Shown here: one piece after another, positions 1 to 27,785 of the stretch | How positions within the stretch are numbered: position 1 is the first letter of the stretch | Layout: each line of letters opens with the position of its first letter | DNA from: a bacterium HR30 | Lineage (GTDB): Bacteria > Desulfobacterota > Binatia > HRBIN30 | Direction: 5' to 3' | Assembly: GCA_002898795.1 (NCBI GenBank) | Contig: BEIG01000021.1 | Span: 1-38,292, forward strand | DNA: 38,292 nt | Translations under genes and position numbers: made by a program | The notes under the pieces: model-generated | The model's input: only the letters and a program-made list of their open reading frames with translations | What the model was told of the DNA's origin: nothing | Databases searched by the model: none

Positions 1-485
1 TGGCCGAAGTATTTCGCTATCGGCTGTCGCGCTCGGGAAAGGAATTCGTTCCACTGGAAGAAGAGCTGCGCTTTGCCCACGCCTATTTGGAGATTGAAAA
101 AGCGCGATTCGGCGATGAGCTTACGGTGGAATGGGACATCGAGCCCGCGGCAAGGCACCGCTTAGTGCCAAGCTTGATTCTCCAACCGCTCGTGGAGAAT
201 GCCGTCAAACATGGCATTTCGAAGAAAATCGACGGTGGCACCCTTTCCGTGCAAGCCTGTATCCGTAACGGCCAGCTTTTGGTGGAAGTGAAAGACACCG
301 GTGTTGGCTTTACCGATCATAGCCAACTGTACGATCGAGGCCTGGGATTACGCAGCGTTCGGGACCGCTTAGTTCGCCTTTACGGGGAGGCCCACGCCCC
401 CCAAGTGGAGTCGACTCCTGGCCAGGGTACGGCGGTGCGGTTGTGTATTCCACTGGACCAACAAGAGGTTGGGAAACGAGCATGA
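1..485 (+). CDS. LytS/YehU-type sensor histidine kinase, C-terminal part (truncated by window start)
   Basis: The frame is open from base 3 and gives 160 residues before a TGA. They contain the region after the phospho-histidine of the His_kinase (LytS/YehU/AlgZ) family: VPLEEELRFAHAYLEIEKAR, then the N box LQPLVENAVKHG, the G box DTGVGF and GLGLRSVRDRLVRLYG. The N-terminal sensor and phospho-accepting His lie outside the window. The kinase should phosphorylate the response regulator that follows. The two overlap as ATGA (482-485), so they are probably translationally coupled. The input signal cannot be judged from what is visible. Confidence 0.93.
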   Translation, partial: AEVFRYRLSRSGKEFVPLEEELRFAHAYLEIEKARFGDELTVEWDIEPAARHRLVPSLILQPLVENAVKHGISKKIDGGTLSVQACIRNGQLLVEVKDTGVGFTDHSQLYDRGLGLRSVRDRLVRLYGEAHAPQVESTPGQGTAVRLCIPLDQQEVGKRA

Positions 486-1234
486 TCCGTGCGCTGATTG
501 TGGACGACGAGAAACTCGCACGCGAACGCTTGCAAACGTTCCTGCGCGATTTCGCGGAAGTAGAGGTGGTCGGAACCGCGAAAAACGGCCCTCAGGCGAT
601 CCAAGCTATCGACACACTCAAGCCCGACGTGGTGTTCCTCGACGTCCAGATGCCTGGGGTGGATGGCTTTGGAGTACTGAAGGCAATTCACCACCGGCCG
701 CAAATCGTGTTTGCCACGGCGTTCGACCAGTATGCGATTCGCGCCTTTGAAGTTTGCGCTGTCGACTATTTGCTGAAGCCCATCTCCAGAGAGCGACTGT
801 CCGAAACCATGCGCCGAGTACGCGACCGCCTAGCCAACCAAACCGCGCCGCCCGCCATCGAAGATATCCTCGATGCACTGGAGGCCCGAGAACGCCGCTA
901 TCTCCGGCAAGTCCCAGTGCAACGTGGCCGCAACATTTTAGTTTTGCCGACGGAGCAAATCCTTTGGTTCGAAGTGGAGGACCGCATTGTCTTCGCATAC
1001 ATCGACGGCGACCGATTTATGACGAACTTCACCTTGCGCGAGCTCGAGGAAAGGCTCGACCCAAATGTCTTCTTTCGGGCGCACAAGTCGCGACTGGTCA
1101 ACCTTCACTACGTGAAGGCCATCGTGCCTTGGTTCGCGGGCCGGTACAAACTGGTCATGAAAGACCAAAAGGGCTCCGAGCTCGAATTGAGTCGGGCACA
1201 AACACGGCTGCTACGCTCGCGCATGCATTGGTAA
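482..1234 (+). CDS. LytTR-family response regulator
   Basis: A 250-residue two-domain regulator. The receiver domain (about 1-120) has the acidic pair VDDE near the N-terminus, the phospho-acceptor Asp54 in FLDVQMPGVDGF, and KPIS with the conserved Lys. The C-terminal LytTR DNA-binding domain (about 140-250) has RNILVLPTEQILWFEVEDR and FFRAHKSRLVNLHYV. The ATG at 482 is chosen over the more upstream in-frame start at 443 because it begins the receiver fold directly (MIRALIVDDEK) and overlaps the kinase stop. Together they form a classic LytS/LytR-type two-component pair. Target promoters are unknown, though LytTR proteins usually bind pairs of direct repeats. Confidence 0.94.
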   Translation: MIRALIVDDEKLARERLQTFLRDFAEVEVVGTAKNGPQAIQAIDTLKPDVVFLDVQMPGVDGFGVLKAIHHRPQIVFATAFDQYAIRAFEVCAVDYLLKPISRERLSETMRRVRDRLANQTAPPAIEDILDALEARERRYLRQVPVQRGRNILVLPTEQILWFEVEDRIVFAYIDGDRFMTNFTLRELEERLDPNVFFRAHKSRLVNLHYVKAIVPWFAGRYKLVMKDQKGSELELSRAQTRLLRSRMHW

Positions 1235-6238: not shown

Positions 6239-6577
6239 TTAACATTCCCCTTCGCGTCGAACGACCAACCAAGTGTCCGCCAAAGCCTTGGTGGCATGCG
6301 GTACTCCCGAATCGATGCGGAGCGGACTCGAATCGGGGGTCAGGAGCGCGACTTCCCTCCCCACGCGGACCTCGAGGGTACCGGCAAGAACGTGCAGTGT
6401 TTGCGCAAGAGGATGCGTGTGTTCTGGTTCCGTGTGGCCAGCCGGCTTAAAGACGAGCAAGAGCTGCGGGGTCAGCTCGTACACCGCATGACCACGGGGC
6501 AAAAGCCGCCTTTTCCTTGGCGGGCGCGCGGTGGAAGTCACGCGGTGCCAACCCTTCCCTGAGACCCGGCGCAACAC
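6239..6577 (-). CDS. Small cupin-domain protein
   Basis: Up to 112 residues. The core is a single cupin barrel: FKPAGHTEPEHTHP holds the metal-binding His cluster of motif 1, followed by LHVLAGTLEVRVG and, in motif 2, IDSGVPHATKAL. The protein ends close after the second motif, as small cupins do. The start is uncertain: TTG at 6577 gives the full length, while GTG at 6541 gives about 100 residues and has a purine-rich GGGAAGGG upstream. The gene follows the ketoacyl synthase on the same strand after about 100 bp, so it may belong to that operon. The substrate is not predictable. A stress or sensor cupin and a small-molecule-modifying enzyme are both possible. Confidence 0.72.
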   Translation of the reverse strand: MLRRVSGKGWHRVTSTARPPRKRRLLPRGHAVYELTPQLLLVFKPAGHTEPEHTHPLAQTLHVLAGTLEVRVGREVALLTPDSSPLRIDSGVPHATKALADTWLVVRREGEC

Positions 6578-6679
6578 AAGTCGCCACCGGGAGGTGTTGC
6601 GGGATCACCTGGTTCGGTGCAGGAACTCGTCAGCACGCTGTGTCGGCGCGGAAAGGCGGCAAGTTGGATGGGAATCGGT

Positions 6680-7921
6680 TTAGGCCTGCGGATGCCGCAA
6701 CAGGAGATACGCATTGGCACCACCATAGCCGTAACTGCTCACCAAAATGTGCTCTAGGGTGGCAGCACGGGCAACATTGGGCACGTAGTCCAGATCGCAA
6801 TCGTCCGCTGGCTCATCGAGGAAGTGTGTGGGCGGAATGAGTTGATGGCGAAACGCTAAACAGGCCGCCGCGGTTTGAAACGCGCCCGAGGCCCCGAACG
6901 GATGGCCAAGCACTGCTTTGATGGAACTTACCGGCAACTTTGCTGCCCATTCCCCGAAGGCGGCTTTGGCCACTTTGGTTTCCTTGCTGTCGAACGCGGG
7001 CGAAGCGTTGGCATGAGCGCACAGCCACTGCACGTTGCCCGGCGCCAAGCCACACCGACGTAACAGCGCGCGAAGTGCACTCGCCCCCGTTTCTCCGGTC
7101 GGATCGGTTTGAAACAGCCCGCGGGCATCGCACGAACTCGTGCCTCCGAGCACTTCGGCGTACACATGCGCACCCCGGGCCAAGGCTCGCTCGCGTGGCT
7201 CGAGCACCAGCATGCAAGCTCCTTCGCTCAACACGATGCCGTTGTGCCTACGGTCGAATGGGCGCGAGGCGCGCGCAGGGTCGGCACTGTCCCGCGCCAG
7301 CTCCATCGTGCGACCCATCGAGGCGAACACGAATACGGTGAGCGGGCTTTCCGCGCCGCCCGCAATGACCACCTCGGCTTCGCCAGCGGCGATCAACTGC
7401 CGCCCAAGCGCGATGGCCTGGGTACTTGCCGTGCAGCCGGTGGTGATCGTGAGCTGCGGTCCTTGCGCTCGAGCGAAGGCAGCCATCTCTGCAGCGGTAG
7501 CAAAAGGCAGCGAGCCGTTTGCGAGAAACGGATTGACTCGCCGCGCTCCGCGCTCGAGCAAAATGGCGAACTGCTGCTCGCCCGCTCTCAAACCCGCCAC
7601 GGCGGTGCCGACCAGCAGGGCCACTGCGGTAGGGGTTTCCCACGAGTTGGCAGCAAGCCCGGCATCTTCCAGGGCGCGGCCAATCGCCACCAAACCGAGC
7701 TGTGTGGCGTGGCTCACGGTGCGAAAGTATCGCGGGTCGAGCGACTCCAACTGTGCATCGTCCACCTGGCCGCCAACGCGGCAAGCAAATAGAGATGGAT
7801 CGAAACGATCCACAATCCGCAAGCCAGAACGCCCTTCGACCAGCGCAGACCAAAAGCCGTCAAAGTTCGATCCACACGGGCTGACGAAACCGATGCCAGT
7901 AATAACGACGCGACGATCCAA
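6680..7921 (-). CDS. Beta-ketoacyl-ACP synthase (FabF/KAS II-like)
   Basis: 413 residues from a TTG start (GGAGG a few bases upstream), beginning VVITGIGFVSPCG as thiolase-fold KAS enzymes do. The full Cys-His-His triad is present at FabF-like positions: Cys163 in TTGCTAST, His303 in CAHANASP and His340 in LGHPFGASG. It should therefore catalyse decarboxylative condensation of malonyl-ACP with an acyl chain and is not a chain-length-factor homologue. The usual NAHGTST around the first His is replaced by CAHANASP, which marks a specialised clade and not the housekeeping FabF. It lies 16 bp after the acyl-CoA dehydrogenase and downstream of an ACP, so a dedicated fatty-acyl or polyketide-like pathway is likely. 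The exact product is unknown. Confidence 0.88.
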   Translation of the reverse strand: MDRRVVITGIGFVSPCGSNFDGFWSALVEGRSGLRIVDRFDPSLFACRVGGQVDDAQLESLDPRYFRTVSHATQLGLVAIGRALEDAGLAANSWETPTAVALLVGTAVAGLRAGEQQFAILLERGARRVNPFLANGSLPFATAAEMAAFARAQGPQLTITTGCTASTQAIALGRQLIAAGEAEVVIAGGAESPLTVFVFASMGRTMELARDSADPARASRPFDRRHNGIVLSEGACMLVLEPRERALARGAHVYAEVLGGTSSCDARGLFQTDPTGETGASALRALLRRCGLAPGNVQWLCAHANASPAFDSKETKVAKAAFGEWAAKLPVSSIKAVLGHPFGASGAFQTAAACLAFRHQLIPPTHFLDEPADDCDLDYVPNVARAATLEHILVSSYGYGGANAYLLLRHPQA

Positions 7922-7937
7922 CGGCCTCCGTGCCTCT

Positions 7938-9074
7938 TTACAGTCGCAAGTAGCCGGCCACCAAGTCTTTCATGGCTTCGGACACTCCACCGCCAATAGT
8001 CAAAACCCTCGTGTCACGAAAGACCCGGGAAATCCAGTTGTCTTCCAAAAAGCCCTCTGCGCCGTGCAACTGCAGGCACTGCCCAACGACCCGCTGGACG
8101 CTCTCCATCACGTGGAACTTGATCATGCAAATTTCTTTTCCTTCCACCCGCCCATCGCGGTACGACTCGGCTACGGAACGCACGAACCGCCGATTTGCCT
8201 CGATTTCCGCCGCCATCTCTGCAATGCGGTGGCGCACCGTCTGCAGTTCCGCCAACGGATGACCAAAGATCATCCGTGCCCGCACCCGCGCAATCGTCTC
8301 CTGCAGTACCAAATCGGCAAGAGCCACGGCGCACACTGCAAGAACCAGGCGTTCGCGCAGGAGCCCGTTCATAAGATACATGGTACCGAGGTTAGGCTTG
8401 CCGACCGTCATCGATTTTGGCACGCGACACTCGCGAAACTTGAGCCACCCTGTGGGCGAAGCCTTGATGCCCATGGTGCGCAAGGGGGAGGCCTCGAAGC
8501 CAGGTACGTCGGTGGGAACCAACACCAAGGCAAAGCTGGTGGTTGCAACATTGGGCGAGGTACGCACCAAGGCAAGCACGTAGTCCGCAATCGGGCCGTT
8601 GGTGATAAATTTCTTCTCTCCGGAAATCACCCAAAAGTCCCCATCGCTCACCGCAGTGCACTGTACGGAGCGCACCAAGTCCGTGCCTCCGCTCGGCTCG
8701 GTGCCAGCGACCCCGGCGATCTTCTCGCCCCGGACCAACGCCGGCACGATCTCCCGCCGGTGCGCTTCCGTGCCGTGTTTTAGAAGGAGGTGAGTCACGA
8801 CCTGCGAATGCACGCCCAGGCTCGTCCCTAGGCCCAAGCTACGTGCTCGGGGCATTTCTTCGGCCAAGACCACATCGTAGGCGAAATCGCCACCTCGGCC
8901 ACCGTACTCCGCCGGCACTGACAACCCCAACCAGCCCCAAGAGCCAAACTGGCGGAACAACGCGCGCACCTTCTGAGGGTCTTCGAACTCCGCAGCCCGC
9001 GGGGCCAACTTCTTCTCGATCAGTTCGCGAACTTCGCGACGAAACCTCTCGTGCTCTTCCCGAAAGAGCGCCAT
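7938..9074 (-). CDS. Acyl-CoA (or acyl-ACP) dehydrogenase
   Basis: 378 residues, the normal ACAD length. The N-terminal helical domain is followed by the central beta domain with FAD and substrate motifs (GVAGTEPSGGTDL, WVISGEKKFITNG). The C-terminal helical domain contains LQLHGAEGFLEDNW, RVFRDTRVLTIGGGVSEAM. It should oxidise an acyl thioester to the 2-enoyl form using FAD. The IGGG variant lacks the Glu of IYEG-type enzymes, so the catalytic base must be elsewhere, as in several known ACAD branches. Its ATG overlaps the ACP stop (ATGA, 9071-9076), and AGGAGG lies inside the ACP 3' end, so the two are co-translated. This context makes an ACP-bound substrate plausible. Confidence 0.9.
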   Translation of the reverse strand: MALFREEHERFRREVRELIEKKLAPRAAEFEDPQKVRALFRQFGSWGWLGLSVPAEYGGRGGDFAYDVVLAEEMPRARSLGLGTSLGVHSQVVTHLLLKHGTEAHRREIVPALVRGEKIAGVAGTEPSGGTDLVRSVQCTAVSDGDFWVISGEKKFITNGPIADYVLALVRTSPNVATTSFALVLVPTDVPGFEASPLRTMGIKASPTGWLKFRECRVPKSMTVGKPNLGTMYLMNGLLRERLVLAVCAVALADLVLQETIARVRARMIFGHPLAELQTVRHRIAEMAAEIEANRRFVRSVAESYRDGRVEGKEICMIKFHVMESVQRVVGQCLQLHGAEGFLEDNWISRVFRDTRVLTIGGGVSEAMKDLVAGYLRL

Positions 9075-9349
9075 CAGGGCACCTCCTCGCCACGAGCACG
9101 CCGGTAAATGTACTCTACGATGTCCCCGAACCGGTTGAGCTCGATCATATAGAGTGGGTCGAGCTCAGTCTGAAACTCCTCTTCCAGCGCCACCTGCAAC
9201 TCTACGAGCTGCACCGACTCTATCGCCAACGTCGTATCAAAGCTGGCATCGTCGGTGATTTGTTCCAGGGGAATGCCAGCAACTTCGTGCAATACACTTG
9301 CCACCCTTCTTCTCACCGTTTCAGGTGTTAACGCCAACTGCCCGCTCAC
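9074..9349 (-). CDS. Acyl carrier protein
   Basis: 91 residues from GTG 9349, chosen because GGGAGG (9360-9365) sits 10 nt upstream; a longer in-frame reading from TTG 9442 would run into the divergent regulatory region. The fold is a typical acidic four-helix ACP: TVRRRVASVLHEVAGIPLEQI, FDTTLAIESVQLVELQVALE, and the C-terminal helix GDIVEYIYRRA. The phosphopantetheine Ser is Ser45, in an ESV motif in place of the common DSL. It would carry acyl chains for the KAS and dehydrogenase downstream and possibly for the FeeM-like synthase encoded divergently. It is not the housekeeping AcpP, judging by the motif and context. Confidence 0.88.
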   Translation of the reverse strand: MSGQLALTPETVRRRVASVLHEVAGIPLEQITDDASFDTTLAIESVQLVELQVALEEEFQTELDPLYMIELNRFGDIVEYIYRRARGEEVP

Positions 9350-9359
9350 CTCGCTCGCA

Positions 9360-9365
9360 CCTCCC
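9360..9365 (-). promoter_or_regulatory. Ribosome binding site GGGAGG deciding the ACP start
   Basis: On the minus strand GGGAGG lies 10 nt before the GTG at 9349. None of the longer in-frame starts has a comparable site. Confidence 0.6.
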
Positions 9366-9391
9366 GTTCCGTTAGCTTGCGTCCCGCTGCC

Positions 9392-9421
9392 GTGATACGC
9401 TTGACTGTGGCCTCGGCGCAA
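9392..9421 (-). promoter_or_regulatory. Candidate sigma70-like promoter for the ACP-ACAD-KAS operon
   Basis: On the minus strand TTGCGC (9416-9421) is followed after 18 nt by TATCAC (9392-9397), each 4 of 6 to consensus, about 40 nt before the ACP start. It lies in the divergent gap shared with the FeeM-like gene. On the plus strand TTGACT (9401-9406) lacks a good -10 at normal spacing. Confidence 0.35.
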
Positions 9422-9454
9422 GCCCAAACTACAGACAAGCACGCGGTCGTTTCA

Positions 9455-10084
9455 ATGGAACACAGCAGTCGGCGGATAACGAATACTCACTGCTCCGGGT
9501 TGACCGACGGAGAGTCGCTGAACATCAGAGTCGCGGACGCACGTGAGCTCGCCGAAAGTCTCAGAAAGAGGATGTTGATCTACCGGGAAATGCTCGGTCA
9601 CCATGGAGTAGATGAGTACGACCGAACTTCCCTGCACATCGTGGCCTTACGCGGCGGGCTGCTGGTCGCAGCGCTTAGGCTGGTTGGGCCGACCCCTTTG
9701 ACCGTCGAGCTTTCGCGGTTCATTAACCTTGAGAGATCGCCTTTCGACTCTGCCCGACTCATGCAAATTGGTGGGTTTTGGGCAGAGGGGCCCATGCGCC
9801 GCGTAACCCGAGACAATACTCTCACGGTAAAGAGGCTATTCCAGAAATCGGTTGAACTGGCTTCTCGATTTGGCTGTGGCGGTATAATCATGCGAACCGT
9901 ACCACGGCTTCGCCCCTGGTATTCAGGCTTCGGCTTTAAGGTGCTTCCCAACCTCAATTACTGGGATCCCCACTGGGGTCACGTTGTGACGATGTACCTA
10001 CGTATTGAGCATTTTGCGCAGGGCGCCCCGTTTGCATCTAGAGATAGTTGGCAAGGTCCACTGCTCGGAACGTTCTGCCGCTGA
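9455..10084 (+). CDS. FeeM/LuxI-like N-acyl amino acid synthase candidate (GNAT fold)
   Basis: 209 residues from ATG 9455; TTG 9377 would give 235, and no clear ribosome site decides. The pattern fits the acyl-ACP-using N-acyl amino acid synthase (FeeM) and autoinducer-synthase branch of the GNAT fold. The helix ESLRKRMLIYREMLGHHG is followed by the acidic VDEYDRTSLHIVAL, then GGLLVAALRLVG and ELSRF. A second half has GGFWAEGPMRR and WYSGFGFKVLPN. Members of this family transfer a fatty acyl group from ACP to an amino acid amine; here the acceptor is unknown. A divergent ACP gene next door supports this. Arg codons AGA/AGG and Ile ATA are unusually frequent for the window. A PEP-CTERM-associated acyltransferase or a plain GNAT is the alternative. 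Confidence 0.68.
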   Translation: MEHSSRRITNTHCSGLTDGESLNIRVADARELAESLRKRMLIYREMLGHHGVDEYDRTSLHIVALRGGLLVAALRLVGPTPLTVELSRFINLERSPFDSARLMQIGGFWAEGPMRRVTRDNTLTVKRLFQKSVELASRFGCGGIIMRTVPRLRPWYSGFGFKVLPNLNYWDPHWGHVVTMYLRIEHFAQGAPFASRDSWQGPLLGTFCR

Positions 10085-10092
10085 GTACCGGA

Positions 10093-12327
10093 ATGGCCTT
10101 CCAAAATCTTCCTTCGCTGGTGGCCGCTATCGCAGCCGGGTTTCTCGCGGTCCTCGTTGCCTCTCAACGCCGAGATACAGAAAGCCGCGCCTTCGTACTG
10201 CTGACGACCCTAATCGCCTGCTGGAACGTGTACTTCTTCATTTTGGGGCTGGGTTCTTGCGACGAGAGGTCACAAGCGCTGCTGCGGGCGCTGGCAACCG
10301 GCGTAGCGCTGCTGCCGGCCGCGGTCATTGGTTTTCTCGTGGTACCCCGCCACACCAGAACCCGCGTGTGGCGCTGTACCGCCTTCGTCAGCTTTGGCAT
10401 GTCCACGGTGGTTGTCCTGGCGAATCCGTTCGGCCTGGTCGTCCGAGGCTTAGAGAAGTATGCCTGGGGCTGTCACTCGTTGCCAGGACCGTTGTACCAC
10501 GTTCACACGGCCAACGCAGTGCTTGCCGGTATCGCCGCCATCGCCCTGTGCATTAGCGACCTGCGTCACGCGGCCAGCCCTCGCGATCGGCTTGTTGCTC
10601 GGTTTTGGTTGATCAGCGCGGCAGTCGGCGTGCCTTCCGCAATCATCAATCTCTTACCCGCGTATGGCGTGCCCATTTATCCCCTCGGGAACCTGGGTAG
10701 TGCCTTGTGGGCTGCGATTATTGCCTACGCCGTGGTACGGCACCGGCTGCTCGACGTGGAAGTTTGGATATCCCGCCTCGGCACCGTGGCGGCGGCGGGG
10801 ATGGTGACCATCGTACCCGCTTACGTCCTTTTAGTCCTGCTGCAAATCCAGGCATTCGGTGCAGCGCACGTCGACTTGTCGATGGCGATTCTCCTGTCTC
10901 TCGTCGTTGTTGCCGCGATCTTCCCCATCCTTCAACGCAAGCTGGAAAAGAAGTTCGCGGAGCGAGCTTTTCCGTACAAGATCGAGCAGCAAAGCTCCTT
11001 GGACATGTTACGCCGGGCGGTGCTGCGCGAGCAGGACCTTGGCCGGCTTGTCGACGTAGTGGCAAAGGGCCTGCACGCGGTTTTCCATCCTCCAACCATC
11101 GCCATCTTCACGCGCCAGCCGGAAGCTGCCGCTCTACGGCTAGCCCACCATCTCGGGGAACCGCCTGCGGAAAGTAGCTTCCCGTTCACGAGCCCACTTG
11201 TCGCTGAACTCGAGGATGCCACGCTTTCCCTGCTGCAAAGCGAACTCTTGGAATCGAAGCGTGACCGCGGCCGGGAAGTGGGCAAACTCATGGAAACACT
11301 CGGGTGGACAGTATGTGTTCCGGTGAAAACCAGTCGGCAGTTGTCGGGATTTCTCGCTCTCGGCCTCAAAGAGGGCCGCGACTGGTACATGCTCACGGAG
11401 CTCGAAGCCTTAGAGCGCCTCGCAGAGGAGCTTGCCCTTGCCCTGGACAACATCCAGTTGCACCAGCAGGCAGCACTCGCCCGGCAAACTCTCGAGCGGA
11501 TCGAACGCCTCAGCGCCATTGGCACGATGGTCGCCGGCATTGTGCACGAAGTGCGCAATCCACTGGTAGCCTTCAGCACCTTCATGCAGTTGGCCCGACA
11601 ACAGAAAGCTTCGCCCGAACTGATCGAGGCTAGTGCTCCAGTCATCCTAGGCGAGCTCGACCGCGTGCAGCGGTTGCTCGATGAACTCCTGCGCACTACG
11701 CGTGGCAACCCGCCAAAGTTTGGCGAAGTGGATCTCGGTCAATGTGTCCGCGACGTGGCGGCCTTACTCAAACCGCCGGCAAAGCAAGCTCACGTCGTGC
11801 TAGAACCTAAGTTTCTGTCGGACTCGGTAACGGTATTCGCCGATGCCGATCGGGTGCGCCAAGTGCTGTTCAACCTCGGCATGAACGCCATCGAAGCGGC
11901 ACCCGAGGGCACCACGGTAACGATCACGGTCGCGCGGGCGTCCAAGAACGGGCGTATGTACGGCGAGGTGAGCGTGCGCGACACTGGGCCGGGCTTACCG
12001 CAGGAATTACGGGAAAAAGTGTTTCAACCGTTCTTTACCACCAAAGCGGACGGCACCGGTCTTGGCCTAGCCTTGTGCCTGCAGATCACCGAGGAGCACG
12101 GAGGCTATCTGGACATTCGCGACCCGCAAGGACCCGGCATCATCTTTGCCGTGGGATTCCCTGAGTTTATCCCCGAAGTTCACGCACCCCTCGTCGATGA
12201 TCCTCGCAAAGACGAACTACAGTTGACCCCAGAAGAAGAAGCCCACATTCGGGCTCTCGTGGGCAACATCAAGCTCCCGCCCGAAGTGTTGCGCCTCGTC
12301 CGGCAAACCCGTATCAAAAAATCTTGA
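10093..12327 (+). CDS. Multi-pass membrane sensor histidine kinase
   Basis: 744 residues from ATG 10093, 8 bp after the FeeM-like stop, so probably coupled to it. The N-terminal ~290 residues hold several hydrophobic helices (for example LVAAIAAGFLAVLVASQ and MAILLSLVVVAAIFPIL), resembling 7TM-type sensor regions. A GAF-like stretch (about 310-460) follows. The kinase core has the H box GIVHEVRNPL with phospho-acceptor His485, N box NLGMNAIEAA (Asn598), G1 DTGPGLP (Asp630) and G2 GTGLGLAL. A 60-residue tail extends beyond the ATPase domain. No receiver domain is fused and no response regulator lies next to it. The PrsK-like kinases of exosortase systems have a similar layout. The ligand is unknown; a membrane lipid or the product of the neighbouring synthase is a reasonable guess. 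Confidence 0.9.
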   Translation: MAFQNLPSLVAAIAAGFLAVLVASQRRDTESRAFVLLTTLIACWNVYFFILGLGSCDERSQALLRALATGVALLPAAVIGFLVVPRHTRTRVWRCTAFVSFGMSTVVVLANPFGLVVRGLEKYAWGCHSLPGPLYHVHTANAVLAGIAAIALCISDLRHAASPRDRLVARFWLISAAVGVPSAIINLLPAYGVPIYPLGNLGSALWAAIIAYAVVRHRLLDVEVWISRLGTVAAAGMVTIVPAYVLLVLLQIQAFGAAHVDLSMAILLSLVVVAAIFPILQRKLEKKFAERAFPYKIEQQSSLDMLRRAVLREQDLGRLVDVVAKGLHAVFHPPTIAIFTRQPEAAALRLAHHLGEPPAESSFPFTSPLVAELEDATLSLLQSELLESKRDRGREVGKLMETLGWTVCVPVKTSRQLSGFLALGLKEGRDWYMLTELEALERLAEELALALDNIQLHQQAALARQTLERIERLSAIGTMVAGIVHEVRNPLVAFSTFMQLARQQKASPELIEASAPVILGELDRVQRLLDELLRTTRGNPPKFGEVDLGQCVRDVAALLKPPAKQAHVVLEPKFLSDSVTVFADADRVRQVLFNLGMNAIEAAPEGTTVTITVARASKNGRMYGEVSVRDTGPGLPQELREKVFQPFFTTKADGTGLGLALCLQITEEHGGYLDIRDPQGPGIIFAVGFPEFIPEVHAPLVDDPRKDELQLTPEEEAHIRALVGNIKLPPEVLRLVRQTRIKKS

Positions 12328-12378
12328 ACGTCCAGAGCCCGTGTTGACGTTGCGGGTGCGTTGGGCTTCACAGGGAGC

Positions 12379-13272
12379 ATGGCACGGGTACGAACGAACG
12401 GGATCGAACTCGAGTACGAGATCTTCGGCTCCGAGCATGGCGAGCCCCTGGTGCTCATCATGGGGCTGGGCGCCCAAATGATCTTGTGGCGCGACGACTT
12501 TTGCCACATGCTCGTGGAGCGCGGTTATCGTGTGATTCGTTTCGACAACCGCGACGTGGGGCGGTCCACCTGGCTCGACCACTTGGGTCTCCCTAACGTG
12601 ATGGCGCTCATGGCCGCTGCCGCTTCGGGTCAGCCCGTGGAGGCCCCTTACAAACTCACGGACATGGCTGCAGACACCGCGGGGCTCCTCGACGCCCTTG
12701 GCATCGGCAGAGCACACATTGTCGGCGCATCCATGGGCGGGATGATCGCGCAAACCTTCGCCATCCAGTACCCCGAACGGACCCTGAGCCTGACCTCGAT
12801 CATGTCGACAACGGGCGACCCAACGCTTCCTCCACCTCGGCCGGAAGCCCTCAGTGTACTCCTCGCGCCGCAGCCAACTTCTCGCGAAGAGGCAATCGAG
12901 CGAGGTGTGTTCATCTTCCGGACCATCGGCAGTCCTAAGTATTTCGACGAAGCCGAAGTCCGCGAGCTGGCCGCACGGTCGTTCGACCGCGGCATCAACC
13001 CGGCTGGAGTCATGCGCCAATTGGCGGCAATTTTGGCCTCGGGAAACCGTACCGAGGCGTTGCGCCAAGTGCAGAAACCCGTGCTCGTCATTCACGGCCG
13101 GATCGATCCATTGGTTCCATTTGCCGCGGGAGAGGCGACTGCCCGCGCCCTTCCACGTGCCCGACTGCTCGCGTTCGAGGACATGGCGCATGACCTGCCC
13201 CGGCCGTTGTGGCCCGACATGGTCGCAGCCATTCACGAGGTAGCCGAGGAAGCGAAGCGCGATGGGAAATGA
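12379..13272 (+). CDS. Alpha/beta-fold hydrolase
   Basis: 297 residues from ATG 12379. The complete catalytic triad can be placed: Ser118 in the nucleophile elbow GASMGG, Asp243 in HGRIDPLVP and His271 in DMAHDLP. The oxyanion-side motif is LIMGLGAQ, and FDNRDVGRST fits esterase/lipase-like members such as the anthracycline methyl-esterase group. Predicted activity is ester or amide hydrolysis in the cytoplasm; the substrate is not known. It lies 51 bp after the histidine kinase on the same strand and overlaps the next gene by ATGA. If the FeeM-like enzyme makes an acyl amide signal, this hydrolase is a candidate for its turnover, but that is context only. Confidence 0.9.
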   Translation: MARVRTNGIELEYEIFGSEHGEPLVLIMGLGAQMILWRDDFCHMLVERGYRVIRFDNRDVGRSTWLDHLGLPNVMALMAAAASGQPVEAPYKLTDMAADTAGLLDALGIGRAHIVGASMGGMIAQTFAIQYPERTLSLTSIMSTTGDPTLPPPRPEALSVLLAPQPTSREEAIERGVFIFRTIGSPKYFDEAEVRELAARSFDRGINPAGVMRQLAAILASGNRTEALRQVQKPVLVIHGRIDPLVPFAAGEATARALPRARLLAFEDMAHDLPRPLWPDMVAAIHEVAEEAKRDGK

Positions 13273-14096
13273 AGGCCCTTCGCCTGGCCTCGGGCACGAC
13301 CGCCCTCCTCAGTCTGCTTTTTGCGGGGCTTGCAGCGGCGGGCCCTTTCACGACCGAAGCCCGGCTTGCCACCACCACCAGCGTGGAAAACTCGGGGCTT
13401 CTGGCCCATTTGCTCCCGCGATTCGAGCAGAACCGCGGGATTCGCGTGGCGGTGCTCCCAGTCGGAAGCGGACAAGCCCTGGAACTTGCCGCTCGCGGTG
13501 ACGTGGATGCTGTCCTAACCCACGCACCGTCGTTGGAAGAGGAGGCCCTGGCGCGGGGTACGGTGGTGGAGCCACGGGTGGTCATGGAAAACGAGTTTCT
13601 TCTCGTTGGCCCACCGAGCGATCCGGCACAGGTTCGGAACACGAACGACATCGCCAAAGCCCTAGCGGCCATTGCCCGGCACGAGGCGCTATTCGTGTCG
13701 CGCGGCGACCACTCGGGAACGCACATGACCGAACTGGAGCTCTGGCGTGCAGCCGGCGTACGGCCGCACGGCCCCTGGTATTTGGAAGGCGGACACGGCA
13801 TGGGCCCCACCTTGACGATGGCTGCTGAACGGCAGGCGTATACCCTAACCGACCGTGCCACCTTCCTCACCTATCGGAACCTTAAGGGCCTCGAGATCCT
13901 GGTTCGCAACCATCCCCCGCTGAAGAACGTGTACCGTGCAATGCTCGCCCGGCCAGAGCGGCGCCCGCAGGCCACCTGGCGAGCCGCCCGCGAGTTTGTC
14001 GAATGGCTCGTATCGCCGGTCGGCCAAACTGCGATCGCGGCCTTTCGGATCAACGGCGAAGCCGTGTTCACTCCCGCCGCGACATCGGCCCCGTGA
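13269..14096 (+). CDS. TupA-like tungstate/oxyanion-binding periplasmic protein
   Basis: 275 residues from ATG 13269, which overlaps the hydrolase stop (ATGA). A signal peptide (MKALRLASGTTALLSLLFAG, cleavage near AAAG) leads into the tungstate-binding-protein signature: LATTTSVENSGLLAHLLPRF, VLPVGSGQALELAARGDVDA, VLTHAPSLEE. Further TupA-like segments are FVSRGDHSGTH and YTLTDRATFL. The family delivers tungstate, or related oxyanions, to a TupBC ABC importer. No permease or ATPase gene lies in the window, so it either serves a remote transporter or has been co-opted as an extracytoplasmic sensor. Placement after the kinase and hydrolase is unusual for this family. Confidence 0.87.
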   Translation: MKALRLASGTTALLSLLFAGLAAAGPFTTEARLATTTSVENSGLLAHLLPRFEQNRGIRVAVLPVGSGQALELAARGDVDAVLTHAPSLEEEALARGTVVEPRVVMENEFLLVGPPSDPAQVRNTNDIAKALAAIARHEALFVSRGDHSGTHMTELELWRAAGVRPHGPWYLEGGHGMGPTLTMAAERQAYTLTDRATFLTYRNLKGLEILVRNHPPLKNVYRAMLARPERRPQATWRAAREFVEWLVSPVGQTAIAAFRINGEAVFTPAATSAP

Positions 14097-14359: not shown

Positions 14360-15292
14360 ATGGCGGCACGGTTGGGCAGGTTCTTGGCGGCGATGGCGGT
14401 TCTGGCCGCTTCCAGCTTACCTCCGTCCAGTGGAGGTGCCGCGGCTGGTCCGCCCGCACAGCGGGTGCCAGCTGCTTTGCTCATGTTCCCTTACGTCGAA
14501 GCCGGAGCCGGTAGGGACACGAGGATCGAGCTCGTGAACTTGAGTGGCGTGCCGATCGAGCTCGAATGCTTCTTCGTCAACGGCGAGGACCCGGCATGCA
14601 ACGAGGTTGGGTTCGTGCTGGCGCTCACGCCGTACCAGCCATTTGCTTGGCTGGCCAGTGAGGGGATGAGCAATGTCATCAACGGCACGGCAGCGCCCCC
14701 GTTCTGGGGTTTCGGGGAACTCAAATGTGCAGTGGTTCCTCCCGAGCCGGCACTAGAGCTGTACAATACGGTGCAGGGGAGAGCGACGGTCTTCGGATTG
14801 GATGGAACCACGGTATCCTACACCGCCTACGGGTTTCAACGATTCGTTGGGGGTGAGTACACCGGGCTGCTTCGGCTCGACGGCAATGAATATGCGCAAT
14901 GTCCCGATCGGCTACTGTTTACGGTGCTTGCCGATACGCCCGCAGGGAACAGCGAGCTGATCCTTCTGCCGTGCTCGCAAGACCTGGTCTTACAGTCGCC
15001 GGCCACGGTGACGGCGCAGCTCCTCCTGACCACGGAACTGGGGCAGACCGTGTCCACATCTTTCCAGGTGCGTTGCTACTCGCGGCGACTTCTCCGCGAC
15101 GTTGCCGACGTGCTGCAGCGCAGCATTGGTGGCTCGGATGTCGTGCAAATTTCTGTGCGCGGTGTGGGTGGGCCGCTCATCGGTCTAGTGATCGACGGAA
15201 TCCCGTTTGGCTCGACCTTTGGTTTAGCCGGCAATGAGCCGATGTTTCTCGGAGGCCGAACGGCAACGATCTCGGTGCCGCGTTCCCGGTAG
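14360..15292 (+). CDS. Secreted protein of unknown function, paralogue A
   Basis: 310 residues starting at an ATG preceded by AGGAGG. A signal peptide (LAAMAVLAASSLPPSSGG) is followed by one all-beta-looking domain beginning PAALLMFPYVEAG. Landmarks include DTRIELVNLSG, ELECFFVNG, FGELKCAVV, CPDRLLFTVLAD, NSELILLPCSQDL and ISVRGVGGPLIGLVIDG. Six to eight Cys suggest disulphides and an extracytoplasmic location. The next gene encodes the same domain with the same landmarks in the same order, so they are tandem paralogues. I do not recognise a named family and no catalytic motif is evident. The promoter and palindrome just upstream suggest regulated expression of the pair. Confidence 0.8.
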   Translation: MAARLGRFLAAMAVLAASSLPPSSGGAAAGPPAQRVPAALLMFPYVEAGAGRDTRIELVNLSGVPIELECFFVNGEDPACNEVGFVLALTPYQPFAWLASEGMSNVINGTAAPPFWGFGELKCAVVPPEPALELYNTVQGRATVFGLDGTTVSYTAYGFQRFVGGEYTGLLRLDGNEYAQCPDRLLFTVLADTPAGNSELILLPCSQDLVLQSPATVTAQLLLTTELGQTVSTSFQVRCYSRRLLRDVADVLQRSIGGSDVVQISVRGVGGPLIGLVIDGIPFGSTFGLAGNEPMFLGGRTATISVPRSR

Positions 15293-15297
15293 ACACC

Positions 15298-16842
15298 ATG
15301 AACCAGATTCTCAGCGGACTCGCAGCCTTTCTCTTTGCTTGGTACCAGCTCCTGGCGCAGCACGGGGTCTTGCCAGCAACTCCACGTCCTTCTGCTTCGC
15401 CTACTCCAAGCGCTACGCGGACTCTCGTTGCACCCACGACACCTACGGAGCCGCCGCAGTCGCCCACTGCCACCGTGCCGTTGCCATCGCCGACCCAAAC
15501 GCTTCGTGTGACACATACACCTACATGGTCGCCGCGCCCATCGGCCACTTGGACGAACAGTCGGCCTCCGACACCGACAAGGACGTTCTCCCCCTTGCCC
15601 TCGTCTACCTTCACCTACAGTCCTCGGCCCAGCGCAACGGCAAGTCGTAGCCCCACGGCCACGTGGTCGTTTACCGCCACGAGATCGGTGACGCCAACCC
15701 GTTCCTTCACCGCAAGTGCTTCCCCCACGCGAACTGCTTCTCCCTCCTTCACGGCCACGCCATCACGTACCGTAACCGCCACCCGCACCATAACCGTCAC
15801 CCGCACACCCACGCTCACGTTCACTCCGAGCTTCACACCCACGCACAGCTTCACCCCCTCGCCCTCGCGCACGCCGAGTGCGACCTTCACGCGGCCTCCC
15901 ACGTGGACCCCTCGACCAAGCTTCACCGCCACGCACTCACCGACGCCCCGGCCCACGCGGGTTGGTGGCGAGGTGGATCCGCTCGGCATTCAAGCCCAAG
16001 GCGACCCACCAGCACAAAAACTGGCCGCAGCGGTGTTAATTTTCCCCCTCGTGCGATCGTCGGCAACGACAGACACCCGAATCGAGATAGCCTCTTCTTC
16101 GACCGTGGCGGGTCCCGCGGCACGTTGCTTTTACGTGAGCGCGGGTAACTGCGTAGAAATTGGTTTCCAGGCTATCGCTCCCTCGGGCGGTGGCGGTGCA
16201 GCCGCGCGGCCGCTTTCGTGGATGGTGAGCACAGGACTCGACGGCAATGGACGTCGCATCGCCCCTCCGTTTCAAGGGGATGGAGAACTCAAGTGCTTTG
16301 CCAGTGGCAATAGCTTAACTGGCCGAGCCTTGATCGCCGACAACACGGGGCAGCGCATTGCGTATTCGGCCGTGGCGTTTCGCAAACTCCGAGACGATGC
16401 TCCGACGAGCTTCGTTTCGCTCGACGGGGTCAACTACGAAGCTTGCCCGGATCGGCTGCACTTCAACGTTCTTGCGCAAAGCGCCACTTCGAACAGCGAG
16501 TTGATTTTGGTCCCCTGCACGCAAGACCTCGAAGGACAGGTATTTTCCTCGGTCACCCTTCAGTACGCCGTGATCAACGAACTCGAGCAAACGTTCTCCG
16601 GCGCGAGCTCGTTCCGCTGCATGGAGCGGCGTAACTTCAGCACGATTCCAGCTCTCCGGTTTTCCAGCATTGGGACGAACACCGCGCACCTCATTGTGCG
16701 CGGTGTCGAGGTTCCCGTCATCGGGTTTGTCATCGACCGCTTTCAAGTGCCTGGTTCCGGAGCACTTTCCACGTCCAGCAACGAGCCATACTTGGAAGGT
16801 TCGCGCGAGGCTACGCTCGATCTCCCGCCCGATTGGCCCTGA
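15298..16842 (+). CDS. Secreted mucin-like protein, paralogue B of the preceding gene
   Basis: 514 residues from ATG 15298, 5 bp after paralogue A. A short N-terminal hydrophobic segment (ILSGLAAFLFAWYQLLA) acts as signal peptide or anchor. Residues about 27-220 are Thr/Ser/Pro-rich with motifs such as TPTRTFSPLPSSTFT, a likely extended and possibly glycosylated stalk. Residues about 221-514 repeat the domain of paralogue A: AAVLIFPLVRS, DTRIEIASSS, GDGELKCFAS, CPDRLHFNVLAQ, NSELILVPCTQDL, VRGVEVPVIGFVIDR. The pair therefore differs mainly by the inserted stalk. The two are probably co-transcribed surface proteins of unknown function. The coding strand is certain: the antisense reading here is a compositional shadow. 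Confidence 0.82.
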   Translation: MNQILSGLAAFLFAWYQLLAQHGVLPATPRPSASPTPSATRTLVAPTTPTEPPQSPTATVPLPSPTQTLRVTHTPTWSPRPSATWTNSRPPTPTRTFSPLPSSTFTYSPRPSATASRSPTATWSFTATRSVTPTRSFTASASPTRTASPSFTATPSRTVTATRTITVTRTPTLTFTPSFTPTHSFTPSPSRTPSATFTRPPTWTPRPSFTATHSPTPRPTRVGGEVDPLGIQAQGDPPAQKLAAAVLIFPLVRSSATTDTRIEIASSSTVAGPAARCFYVSAGNCVEIGFQAIAPSGGGGAAARPLSWMVSTGLDGNGRRIAPPFQGDGELKCFASGNSLTGRALIADNTGQRIAYSAVAFRKLRDDAPTSFVSLDGVNYEACPDRLHFNVLAQSATSNSELILVPCTQDLEGQVFSSVTLQYAVINELEQTFSGASSFRCMERRNFSTIPALRFSSIGTNTAHLIVRGVEVPVIGFVIDRFQVPGSGALSTSSNEPYLEGSREATLDLPPDWP

Positions 16843-19260: not shown

Positions 19261-20451
19261 CTACTCCTTCGGGAGAAGGAAGTACAAGCGGGCGGGGTTC
19301 TCCAGCTCACCGGCAATGGCTTCGGCAACCGTCCCGCTGCCCCAAAAAACGTCGACCCGGTGTGGTCCACCAGTGGTACTTCCCGTATCCTGCAAGAACA
19401 CGAAGCGACGGAAGGCCCGGCCCCCCTTTCCACCGTCGTTTCGTGGCTCGATTTCCATGAAGGCCAGAGCACCGTGGGGGTAAGCGCCGGGATCTGCGGC
19501 TGCCGACCGACCAGCCGTCAGTGGTACACCACAGCTTCCTACGGGCCCCGCCGGTACTCCGCGGAAGAACACCCACCTCGGGTTGTGGGCAAAGAGTTCC
19601 GACTGCTCCTCGGGATGGGCGCGCAAATAATCCTTGAGTCCACGCAAAGTCAGTCTGGTTCCGCTGAGCTTTCCGCGCTCGCTGAGGATTTTGGCAATGC
19701 TGCGGTAGGGGTGGCCATTGCTGGCGGCGTAACTCACGTGCAAGCGGACGCCATCCTCCAGCTCGAGCAGCGCCGCCCCCTGTACATGGAGGAAGTACGC
19801 TTCCACGGGGTCGTCGAGCCATGCCAGTTCGTACCCGCGACCGCTCAGGGCACCCGCTTCGATCTCTGCACGGCTGTAGTAGGGGACGAGTTTTCCGTCT
19901 TTTACTCGGCCTTGCACGATGCGGGCGGGACACTCAGGACACAACTCTTTGAGGTCCACGTCCACGAGGTCATCGGGGGTACGGTAGATCGGATAACGAA
20001 AGCGCTCGGTTCGCCGGCGACTGGCGCGCAATTCTGGCTGGTAATACCCTGTGACCCACAATGTCTCGCCCAAGGTCACCTGGTAAAGGCGCAGCCGGTC
20101 ACACAACCGTTCACGCTGAGCCCCGCGAGACTCCAGCACTGCGCGGGTCGCCGCCTGAAGCTGGGCCACCGTGACCTCTTGCCCCACAAGGGTCAAGCGC
20201 CGCTCGAGTGGCAGCCGAGAGAGATAATCCATGTTGCGCTCGGCGGCCAGAAGAAGGGAATCTGGTGTTGCATCGTCGCTGAGGCGCTGCCGACACGTTG
20301 CATCGTCTAAGGGCGTCAACTTCGGACCTTCGCGGGGAGCACTCTGCAAACTGCCAACCGCGGAAGGCGACTGCCTCCTCGCCGGCTCCGCGCAGCCTCC
20401 GTTCATGCACAACCACCACCCAAGCAGCAGCCAACTGAAGAGCTTACGCAT
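19261..20451 (-). CDS. mltA: Membrane-bound lytic murein transglycosylase A, lipoprotein
   Basis: 396 residues from ATG 20451; the frame stays open further upstream, but only from here does a signal sequence begin. The lipoprotein signal is MRKLFSWLLLGWWLCMNGGC with Cys20 as the likely lipidated residue. The MltA barrel follows (VTGYYQPELRASRRR, PYYSRAEIEAG, AYFLHVQGAALLEL, NGHPYRSIAKILSERGK). The C-terminal 3D domain has FLQDTGSTTGG and HRVDVFWGSG, with the catalytic Asp of the family. It cleaves the glycan strands of peptidoglycan to 1,6-anhydro-muropeptides at the outer membrane. It starts 26 bp after the aminotransferase, so they probably share a transcript. Confidence 0.93.
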   Translation of the reverse strand: MRKLFSWLLLGWWLCMNGGCAEPARRQSPSAVGSLQSAPREGPKLTPLDDATCRQRLSDDATPDSLLLAAERNMDYLSRLPLERRLTLVGQEVTVAQLQAATRAVLESRGAQRERLCDRLRLYQVTLGETLWVTGYYQPELRASRRRTERFRYPIYRTPDDLVDVDLKELCPECPARIVQGRVKDGKLVPYYSRAEIEAGALSGRGYELAWLDDPVEAYFLHVQGAALLELEDGVRLHVSYAASNGHPYRSIAKILSERGKLSGTRLTLRGLKDYLRAHPEEQSELFAHNPRWVFFRGVPAGPVGSCGVPLTAGRSAAADPGAYPHGALAFMEIEPRNDGGKGGRAFRRFVFLQDTGSTTGGPHRVDVFWGSGTVAEAIAGELENPARLYFLLPKE

Positions 20452-20477
20452 GGTTCCCTGAGGTAACCTCCGATCCG

Positions 20478-21665
20478 TCAATCTTTTGCCTGTGCGAGCA
20501 CGCGCTGTGCAGCCGCAACGGCAATGCCGGCTTCTACGCGAAAACCAAATCGAGGGAGAACACACTCGAGAGCAGAAAGCACAGCAAGCACGTTCGCCGC
20601 GGTGCTCGACTCTCCCATCAAACCAATGCGCCACGTGCGCCCTTTGAACGGACCCAAGCCAGCGCCAATCTCGATACCAAACTCGTCGAGCAAGGCCCGT
20701 CGCACCCCGGTTTCGTCCACACCTTCGGGCACGCCAATACAGTTGAGGGTCCACAACCGATGGCCTTCTTGGGATGCGAACTCGATCCCCAAAGCGTTCA
20801 GGCCAGCAGCAAGGGCTTCGTGGTTGCGCTTGTGCCGTTGCCAGCGCGCCTCCAAGCCTTCGGCTTCGATCAGCCTCAACGCTTCGAGCAACGCATAATT
20901 CATCGAAATCGGCGCTGTGTGATGGTACACGCGCTCCGTGCCCCAGTACTGCGACAACAAGGAAACATCCAAGTACCAGCTTTGCACTGGCTGGCGCCGC
21001 TGGTGAATGACCGACAGCGCCGCCGGAGAAACCGTAACCGGGGCAAGCCCCGGCGGGGCACTCAAGCACTTTTGCGTGCCGCTGTACGCAACGTCGATCC
21101 CCCAGTCATCCACGCGCACCGGGTGACCGCCGAGCGACGTCACGGTGTCGACCACGAACAAGGCTTCGTGCTCGCGAGCCAAGGTGGCGAGGTCTGCCAG
21201 AGGCTGCAACACTCCTGTGGAGGTTTCCGCATGGACGACGGCGAGTACTTTTGGCTTCCGGCAACCGCGCAAGGCTGTGCGGACGTCAGCCGCATCCACG
21301 ATCCGACCCCATGGTGCCTGGACCTCTTTCACCTGAGCGCCACACCGTCGCGCTACTTCTGCCATGCGCTGCCCAAACAAACCTTTTACACAAACGATCG
21401 CTTCGTCGCCGGGCTCCAGAAGGTTGACCAAACTCGTCTCCATTCCTGCGCTGCCGGTACCGGAAATGGGGATGGTAATTTCGTTGGCCGTACCAAACAG
21501 CCAACGCAGCAGCCGCTTGTTTTCCTCCATGATTGTCAGGAAAGCTGGGTCCAGGTGACCCACAAGCGGTGTACTCATGGCCTGCAGCACCCGCGGATGC
21601 ACCATGCTCGGCCCGGGGCCAAGCAACAATCGTTGGGGAGGGGGGAAGCTTTGCTGTCGAACCAT
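20478..21665 (-). CDS. Class V aminotransferase, alanine-glyoxylate/serine-pyruvate type
   Basis: 395 residues from ATG 21665, preceded by GAGGAGG. It starts like the alanine-glyoxylate aminotransferase family (LLLGPGPSMVHPRVLQAMS, GHLDPAF) and has the PLP-binding Lys199 in SGTQKCLSAPPGL. Other landmarks are SGTGSAGMET, HAETSTGVLQPL, VVDTVTSLGG and the C-terminal WRIGLMGESST. The enzyme transfers amino groups between alanine or serine and glyoxylate or pyruvate using PLP. That suggests a link to photorespiration-like or serine-cycle glyoxylate metabolism. Aspartate/serine-specific versions of this fold are possible. It is the first gene of the leftward unit with mltA. Confidence 0.93.
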   Translation of the reverse strand: MVRQQSFPPPQRLLLGPGPSMVHPRVLQAMSTPLVGHLDPAFLTIMEENKRLLRWLFGTANEITIPISGTGSAGMETSLVNLLEPGDEAIVCVKGLFGQRMAEVARRCGAQVKEVQAPWGRIVDAADVRTALRGCRKPKVLAVVHAETSTGVLQPLADLATLAREHEALFVVDTVTSLGGHPVRVDDWGIDVAYSGTQKCLSAPPGLAPVTVSPAALSVIHQRRQPVQSWYLDVSLLSQYWGTERVYHHTAPISMNYALLEALRLIEAEGLEARWQRHKRNHEALAAGLNALGIEFASQEGHRLWTLNCIGVPEGVDETGVRRALLDEFGIEIGAGLGPFKGRTWRIGLMGESSTAANVLAVLSALECVLPRFGFRVEAGIAVAAAQRVLAQAKD

Positions 21666-21686
21666 AACGCCTCCTCGGTCGCCGCA

Positions 21687-21714
21687 CGCATAACGAACAG
21701 AAGCAGCGATGCAA
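21687..21714 (-). promoter_or_regulatory. Weak candidate promoter for the aminotransferase-mltA unit
   Basis: On the minus strand TTGCAT (21709-21714) and TATGCG (21687-21692) are separated by 16 nt, about 20 bp before the start codon. It lies in the 174-bp gap shared with the divergent dockerin-BP74 gene. Confidence 0.28.
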
Positions 21715-21839
21715 GAAACATTTGCGTCGCAAGCGCAACCGCGCTGTCGAAGTCGATGGAACCAAGTGCACGAAGGCGGTGGGCGTCCGCGCCGGAAGAA
21801 TTGCTCGGCGACCCCCAGCGTAATTCCAAGAGGTGAGAG

Positions 21840-27612: not shown

Positions 27613-27661
27613 CTGGAAATGACCCTCCTGCTTTGGCGCATGCACAACGCAAAGTCGCGAC

Positions 27662-27689
27662 AATTTACCGAATTGCACGGATTTGTCAC
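27662..27689 (-). promoter_or_regulatory. Candidate sigma70-like promoter for the pnt operon
   Basis: On the minus strand GTGACA (27684-27689, 5 of 6 to consensus) and TAAATT (27662-27667, 4 of 6) are separated by 16 nt, about 50 nt before the pntAA start. It lies in the 173-bp gap shared with the divergent acyltransferase gene. Confidence 0.45.
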
Positions 27690-27785
27690 CCCGGGGAAGC
27701 CCCGCAATTGGCCCGGGTCCTTGCGGAGCCAGTGGTTCCCCACGAGCGGCCTTCGTGCTTTGTTCCCACCGCGGAAGGAGAAGTG

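Follow-up and report, generated by a model that had tools for sequence, protein, structure and literature searches.

The window analysed here is the whole 38,292-nucleotide contig BEIG01000021.1 of bacterium HR30 (contig C21 of a 3.73-Mb host genome in 211 contigs). It carries a five-gene core block in which the genes for a beta-ketoacyl synthase (KAS), a protein of the acyl-CoA dehydrogenase family (ACAD) and an acyl carrier protein (ACP) are divergent from those for a GNAT-type acyltransferase and a histidine kinase (HK) with a seven-transmembrane (7TM) sensor. The host belongs to Candidatus Binatia, a lineage known mainly from metagenomes. We read the block as a conserved lipid-signalling locus of one Candidatus Binatia order, in which an acyl-ACP supply, a synthase and a 7TM kinase reader would act together, and we put the probability of this reading at about 50%. 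All genes named in a preliminary description of this DNA were present, in the families given there, when the window was scanned for open reading frames (ORFs) and against profile libraries. The features of the core are the following.

6680 to 7921, minus strand: KAS, a FabF-like beta-ketoacyl synthase; Cys, His and Lys-His active-site residues present
7938 to 9074, minus strand: ACAD, acyl-CoA dehydrogenase family, LCAD/IVD type; probable acyl-ACP dehydrogenase
9074 to 9346, minus strand: dedicated ACP; GTG start assumed; differs from the genome's other ACP match, on contig C37
9347 to 9454, no strand: divergent promoter region; CTTGACT, -35-like, at 9400-9406
9455 to 10084, plus strand: GNAT of the FeeM/LuxI superfamily, probable N-acyl synthase; ATG start; no Pfam match of its own
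10093 to 12327, plus strand: PrsK-like HK with 7TM sensor, GAF, HisKA and HATPase
10093 to 10812, plus strand: 7TM sensor module (HisKA_7TM); predicted beta hairpin between helices 4 and 5; G-protein-coupled receptor (GPCR)-like predicted topology

The gaps of 16 bp between KAS and ACAD and of 8 bp between GNAT and HK were confirmed, as was the divergent arrangement of the two arms, although the gap between ACP and GNAT measured about 108 bp and not about 105 bp. The four-base ATGA overlap described for ACP and ACAD had to be corrected: the ACP stop and the ACAD start share one base (TGATG at 9074).

Conservation was followed in 15 genomes of the order (G000-G014, of which G000, G001 and G002 form the genus of the window), and the borders of the core were drawn by searching the relatives' loci (tblastn) with proteins of the window and of the relatives. 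The KAS-(ACAD)-ACP/GNAT-HK set was found to recur in other genera and families of the order, where the window proteins match at about 26-59% identity. Both arms stand together in eight genomes (G000, G001, G002, G003, G007, G008, G009 and G010), and the conservation of the neighbourhood in relatives, which the preliminary description had proposed to check, was thus borne out. The GNAT is carried by 10 of the 15 genomes: the eight just named (in G007 with a broken frame), G004 (a fragment) and G012. HK lies directly behind it in all ten, including the broken copy, the copy cut in G004 and the case of the moved ACP arm. The special ACP (70 to 161 bits) occurs in exactly these ten carriers, as expected for the dedicated, GNAT-coupled ACP suggested earlier. 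The five remaining genomes (G005, G006, G011, G013 and G014) have no GNAT, and their ACP matches of at most 44 bits, like those of other genomes of the class, are presumably the housekeeping ACP. Such agreement would have a chance of 1 in 3003 if the two genes were independent; the genomes are related, so this figure is no formal test. ACAD of the block family (above 660 bits, all others reaching at most 357) was found in 8 of the 15 genomes, and the sensor module (above 290 bits) in nine, namely the GNAT carriers minus G007, which has a fragment. G006 has a diverged sensor relative of 141 bits, and G005, G011, G013 and G014 have no sensor module above the threshold.

The block varies among its carriers. 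In G001 contigs break inside ACAD, and ACAD-KAS-cupin resume at the start of another contig. G009 and G010 are without ACAD and keep KAS; G009 also has another gene order, in which ACP, GNAT and HK share a strand and KAS diverges from them. Downstream of the kinase of G009 (L055 3341-5295, minus strand) lie a weak second ACP-like frame and an AMP-binding enzyme, perhaps an alternative acyl supply where ACAD is missing. GNAT-HK and ACP-ACAD of G012 are about 240 kb apart on the same contig, with no KAS seen beside ACP-ACAD, and G004 has KAS-ACAD-ACP on one contig and GNAT-HK on another, where the contig end truncates the GNAT. Two 7TM sensor modules were also noted on one strand of G004 (C192 12677-15714), about 2.3 kb apart, of which the second is diverged (114.6 bits). 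In G007 (L054 7397-10155, minus strand) the reading frames of GNAT and HK are broken, by sequencing errors or by decay, and ACP, ACAD and KAS each match there in one frame. Among the 80 loci listed in an ACAD profile scan, the two Binatia records L079 and L080 carry ACAD and KAS of the block family, with an ACP profile match in L079 only and a GNAT match in none. A GNAT-profile run over 395 genomes of the phylum found only the window's own genome above 60 bits; this run scored at most eight first-look candidates per genome, missed the broken G007 and covered only some Binatia.

The GNAT was modelled with a pLDDT of 77.4, ten-residue blocks over residues 21-180 lying at 83-94 except for 67-68 at residues 81-100. 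FeeM (2g0b) ranked first against this model (Foldseek E 6.2e-9; VIA Z 18.4, root-mean-square deviation 3.0, 177 residues aligned). The N-acyl homoserine lactone (AHL) synthases RpaI, LasI, BjaI and TofI reached Z of about 15-16 over 156-172 residues in VIA, and FeeM and the AHL synthases gave the longest structural alignments. When a profile of eight family GNATs was compared with the PDB, TofI came first (E 1.1e-5). At E <= 1, PF13444 matched five of the eight GNATs (best 1.8e-9), TIGR03694 four (best 1.9e-10) and PF21926 FeeM three (best 1.8e-8). Thus, the predicted fold, and through its relatives the profile, support placing the GNAT in the FeeM/LuxI branch, as had been proposed from its resemblance to FeeM and LuxI; by the same structure and profile comparisons, it does not group with ribosomal or antibiotic acetyltransferases. 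LuxI AHL synthases have conserved D, D and R residues and an E-x-S-R motif. D44, D47 and R67 (numbering of the first alignment row) are invariant in 8/8 GNATs and lie inside the TofI-aligned stretch, and the E-x-S-R motif is present only in G008. The column of the ELSRF-type glutamate holds Q in G000, G001, G002 and G010, Y in G003, L in G009 and G012, and E in G008. This column may correspond to Glu95 and to the glutamate of Nas354, a change of which is reported to lead to loss of activity (PMC4897644).

Between G000 and G002, the GNAT also diverges far more than any of the 17 other genes compared, with 36-38% identity against 57-92% for these, some of them compared over part of their length (p178, m517, m289, p386 and p358, which overlap better-supported genes, were dropped, and p228 was left out with its orthologue outside the G002 stretch). 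Despite this divergence, each of the three genus members keeps its GNAT frame intact. The GNATs of the genus group in a single clade (100/100) whose tips measure 0.82-1.18, compared with 0.25-0.27 for HK, and one clade with long tips fits rapid change in place better than separate replacements.

In the acyl supply arm, the active-site Cys, two His and Lys of KAS, identified as catalytic by the FabF assignment, are conserved in 8/8 aligned homologues, and with its active site intact the enzyme should condense. ACAD aligns best to LCAD and IVD types. Its ERL-helix glutamate, which we take to be the catalytic residue of LCAD/IVD-type acyl-CoA dehydrogenases, is invariant in 7/7 sequences; the same column differs between two LCAD entries, with E in 8w0t and Q in 8w0z. 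An invariant serine is found in 6/6 ACP sequences, and within the genus the ACPs are 77-85% identical, depending on the alignment used. Housekeeping enzymes would have to supply malonyl transfer, ketoreduction and dehydration.

HK shows the domains of a HisKA_7TM sensor kinase, with matches to PF16927 (44.4 bits, cut-off 28.6), HisKA (33.4) and HATPase (80.7) and a GAF match below its cut-off. PF16927 gives one match per genome in the genus, to which the sensor-module (A8) profile adds weaker second relatives in G000 and G002. The H-box, N, G1 and G2 motifs keep the same residues in 8/8 HKs, so the kinase should be active. The PrsK model (TIGR02916) matches all eight HKs and aligns with the window HK over model positions 5-679, at 132.6 bits and thus below its cut-off of 300. 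Haft and colleagues describe PrsK as a kinase linked to exopolysaccharide-associated sorting genes, with an obscure stimulus and an "entirely novel" specificity domain, and place the response regulator PrsR in tandem with it or close by (PMC1569441). The scanned ORFs of the window include no sigma-54 regulator. In the sensor model (pLDDT 71.1, all residues under 90), seven helices of 14-25 residues are accompanied by a hairpin and by further helices that are short or of low confidence. Foldseek gave no match at E <= 0.001, the best being the calcium-sensing receptor at 1.9e-3; the 50 VIA matches listed consist of GPCRs and a designed GPCR-like protein (Z 14.9-16.9), prostaglandin receptors first. 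The model thus hints at a GPCR-like topology, as a matter of fold and as evidence neither of homology nor of a ligand.

Related pairs of sensor and GNAT occur elsewhere in the class. A search of 145 genomes of the class with the sensor module returned its next-best matches (190-237 bits) in seven genomes of family f11. In five of these (G021, G034, G047, G054 and G104) a GNAT scoring 185-196 bits with a mixed GNAT profile is directly divergent from the 7TM kinase; of the two exceptions, G027 has its kinase at a contig start and G041 is without a nearby GNAT. The f11 GNATs lie above the PF21926 FeeM cut-off in 4/4 scanned, and their motif retains the glutamate (E-V/I/L-T/N-R-F). The G104 locus continues past the GNAT with a ferritin-like gene and then an MMPL-family transporter; on the side of the 7TM kinase it continues with a sigma-54 response regulator and another kinase. 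As a separate observation, a FeeM-like GNAT stands downstream of a kinase gene and a sigma-54 regulator in G045 and G116 (L192 and L193), which have no 7TM sensor at the threshold used.

These data suggest the following course of events. The dedicated ACP would carry an acyl chain that KAS extends and ACAD desaturates on the carrier, probably at the 2,3 position. The GNAT would then move the chain from this ACP to an amine acceptor to give an N-acyl product, and the 7TM sensor of the PrsK-like kinase may detect that product, or the resulting state of the membrane, whereupon the kinase would pass the signal to an unlinked response regulator. Linkage is what points to sensing, and co-transcription, the acyl-ACP donor, the amine acceptor, the product and the target of the kinase are likewise our inferences. 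The enzyme part is likely, and (N-)acyl transfer from the dedicated ACP in particular is probable. A response of HK to the GNAT product we consider an almost even question. It had been suggested earlier that the block makes an N-acyl amine lipid that may be sensed by the adjacent kinase; the superfamily of the synthase and the conserved pairing with a kinase agree with this, and the ELSRF-type glutamate that would mark such a synthase is missing from the window GNAT. A fuller version, in which a private acyl-ACP factory feeds a diverged FeeM/LuxI-superfamily synthase and the GPCR-like sensor of a cognate 7TM kinase binds the N-acyl product, is tentative, with the odds against it, and that the product is a diffusible cell-to-cell signal seems doubtful.

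Several observations weigh against reading the block as a lipid-signalling locus. In VIA, the window GNAT model also matches ordinary GNATs at Z 16-17 along about 140 residues, and the fold alone is therefore not decisive. Sequence searches of the PDB did not recover FeeM. The window GNAT itself has no Pfam match, PF21926 included, and its best NCBIfam match is TIGR03694 at E 0.037. The E-L-S-R-F glutamate is absent in seven of the eight family GNATs (Q104 in the window), and we therefore place the window GNAT in the superfamily and do not file it as a FeeM-type synthase. No response regulator adjoins HK in the window, and no GNAT was found in the stretch around the sensor locus of G006. Thirteen sensor loci with lower scores (67-125 bits), from other families, have no GNAT within about 1.5 kb on each side, or less at contig ends; further weak sensor matches without a locus were left out. 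The four f11 stretches that were read contained no ACP or ACAD of the block family, and the supply arm is thus not general. The flanking hydrolase, TupA-like protein and cupin described below were not seen with the block outside the genus by tblastn of the relatives' loci, and orthologues of an MMPL-family transporter that adjoins the block in some relatives occur in genomes without it. Finally, sensor identity in the genus is 20-22 points below that of the kinase domain, which lies within the 0-43 points of other HK ortholog pairs and so does not suggest that receptor and synthase have diversified together in any special way; we make no such claim. This control comprised 21 pairs of nine other ortholog sets (30 of 77 HisKA matches had loci, and pairs above 50% identity were kept; three pairs of a tenth set were dropped for a short N-terminal part).

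The block might instead make a structural or protective aminolipid, such as a membrane or surfactant N-acyl amide, with the kinase as a regulator that senses the envelope or surface and not the product. The match of all eight HKs to the exopolysaccharide-linked PrsK, which in the window HK is full-length but below the cut-off, and the MMPL-family transporter beside the block in four genomes fit this explanation, and known N-acyl amino acid synthases can make surfactants (PMC4897644). A kinase that merely regulated the pathway would be likely to remain linked to all of its genes, but the GNAT-HK pairing persists where the supply arm has moved, and a related pair in another orientation is found in f11; we consider the aminolipid explanation possible but unlikely. 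That the GNAT is a diverged TIGR03694 acyltransferase and HK a PrsK, both accessory parts of a PEP-CTERM/exosortase system, is suggested by the TIGR03694 matches in half of the family GNATs and by the long PrsK alignment. It is made improbable by the scores of the window proteins, which fall below both curated cut-offs (13.4 bits against 111.95 bits for TIGR03694), and by the lack of an exosortase among the window ORFs scanned. Exosortase-like genes, mostly weak, occur in 15/15 genomes of the order with or without the block, so that a link to exosortases was set aside for want of a co-occurrence pattern.

A true AHL synthase using S-adenosylmethionine is a very improbable identity for the GNAT. 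TofI is the best sequence-profile match in the PDB, and the two D columns and the R column fall in the stretch aligned to it, but E-L-S-R-F is lost in 7/8 GNATs and FeeM outranks LasI, RpaI, BjaI and TofI in structure. The synteny of the whole neighbourhood within the genus would also be seen if the genes were unrelated neighbours with no joint function; the same core recurs in differing contexts in other genera and families, and presence and absence match across the 15 genomes, which makes a chance association hardly credible.

Three genes that flank the core in the window had been included in what the preliminary description called a self-contained block.

6239 to 6577, minus strand: small cupin; adjoins the block within the genus only; core membership not supported
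12361 to 13272, plus strand: alpha/beta hydrolase; adjoins the block within the genus only; core membership not supported
13209 to 14096, plus strand: TupA-like substrate-binding protein (PBP); adjoins the block in G000 and G002 only

The KAS-ACAD-ACP/GNAT-HK part of that block stood, and the three flanking genes were not upheld as members. The whole neighbourhood is colinear within the genus, with the hydrolase and cupin beside the block in 3/3 genomes and the TupA-like gene in 2/3, so the three genes are neighbours by descent. Outside the genus the block lacks the window's flanking genes, the sole flank match being a response-regulator match of 27% in L009. The hydrolase is related to macrolide esterases and scores under their cut-offs, and the TupA-like binding protein scores under its family cut-off.

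In the promoter region, CTTGACT was found in 6/6 ACP/GNAT gaps first compared and CTTGACA in G007; TTGACA lies on the other strand in G009 (ACP/KAS gap) and G004. No such element was seen at the GNAT start of G009 or in the two regions of G012. CTTGACT occurs once in the 38-kb window, counting both strands, and is probably a -35 element that fits the GNAT start at 9455. A sigma-54 promoter in the ACP/GNAT gap was considered and rejected, with only two weak pattern matches in two of six genomes. At the beginning of the window (3-1234, plus strand), the end of a LytS-type histidine kinase is followed by a LytTR response regulator (443-1234), a separate two-component pair. This regulator was set aside as a partner of HK because the LytS-type kinase end lies directly upstream. 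The MMPL-family transporter is convergent with KAS in G003, G007 and G008, and its end adjoins KAS in G004; these carriers represent three families. Its adjacency suggests that the product may be exported, and as a specific partner of the block it was rejected because of its orthologues in genomes without the block.

Other genes of the window were noted apart from the block. Two tandem proteins of 310 and 514 aa (14360-16842, plus strand), conserved in the genus and without a Pfam match, have parts that resemble each other at 38-40% (tblastn against the relatives' copies). An MltA frame of 602 aa overlaps a 462-aa frame at 19261-21866 (minus strand); over the overlap the 462-aa frame is better conserved (82-84% against 46-51% identity), so the MltA gene probably starts further in. 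A protein with a BP74_N domain (115 bits) is encoded at 21840-22526 (plus strand). The large acyl-CoA synthetase at 27462-30482 (plus strand) has CoA-binding, ligase and ATP-grasp domains and a GNAT domain towards its N-terminus, and is presumably PatZ-like by domain content.

The conserved pairing of a PrsK-type sensor with a FeeM-like synthase points to a definite candidate for the ligand, one open to synthesis and testing. If the lipid-signalling reading is true, synthase and kinase would form a pair that recurs across Binatia, its product would be the first known ligand for a sensor of the HisKA_7TM/PrsK type, and the locus would add a further acyl-signal chemistry, from this lineage, and a synthase with its own chain-building enzymes. 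No description of the KAS-ACAD-ACP/GNAT-HK set was found in the literature searched, a search that most subscription papers lay outside. Synthase-kinase pairs and synthase-linked modifying genes are each known separately. A signal synthase is paired with a membrane histidine kinase receptor in LuxM/LuxN, AinS/AinR and CqsA/CqsS of vibrios. The block shares this pairing, but the vibrio pairs use other synthase and sensor families, and a receptor role in the window would follow from linkage and co-occurrence.

FeeM takes acyl-ACP as its donor, and the window GNAT may do likewise; the two share the GNAT fold in a near full-length structural match to 2g0b. The window block differs from FeeM in the lost ELSRF-type glutamate, in giving no PF21926 match, in having KAS and ACAD beside the ACP and in its 7TM kinase partner. 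The TIGR03694 acyltransferase and PrsK of PEP-CTERM/exosortase systems resemble the window pair as distant GNAT relatives and as a kinase that HK aligns with along its whole length. The window, in contrast, lies below both cut-offs, with no exosortase in the scanned ORFs and no adjacent PrsR, and has its own ACP-KAS-ACAD arm. MbtN, the acyl-ACP dehydrogenase of mycobactin, shares the ACAD family, but the window ACAD is far below the NF037942 cut-off (122.8 bits against 700) and is matched better by other ACAD models. In the three-gene AHL circuit of Mesorhizobium, the synthase is linked to a gene for an acyl-modifying enzyme (PMC10470506). That circuit uses a crotonase-superfamily gene and a LuxR-type receptor (PMC10470506), whereas the window has ACP, KAS, ACAD and a 7TM kinase.

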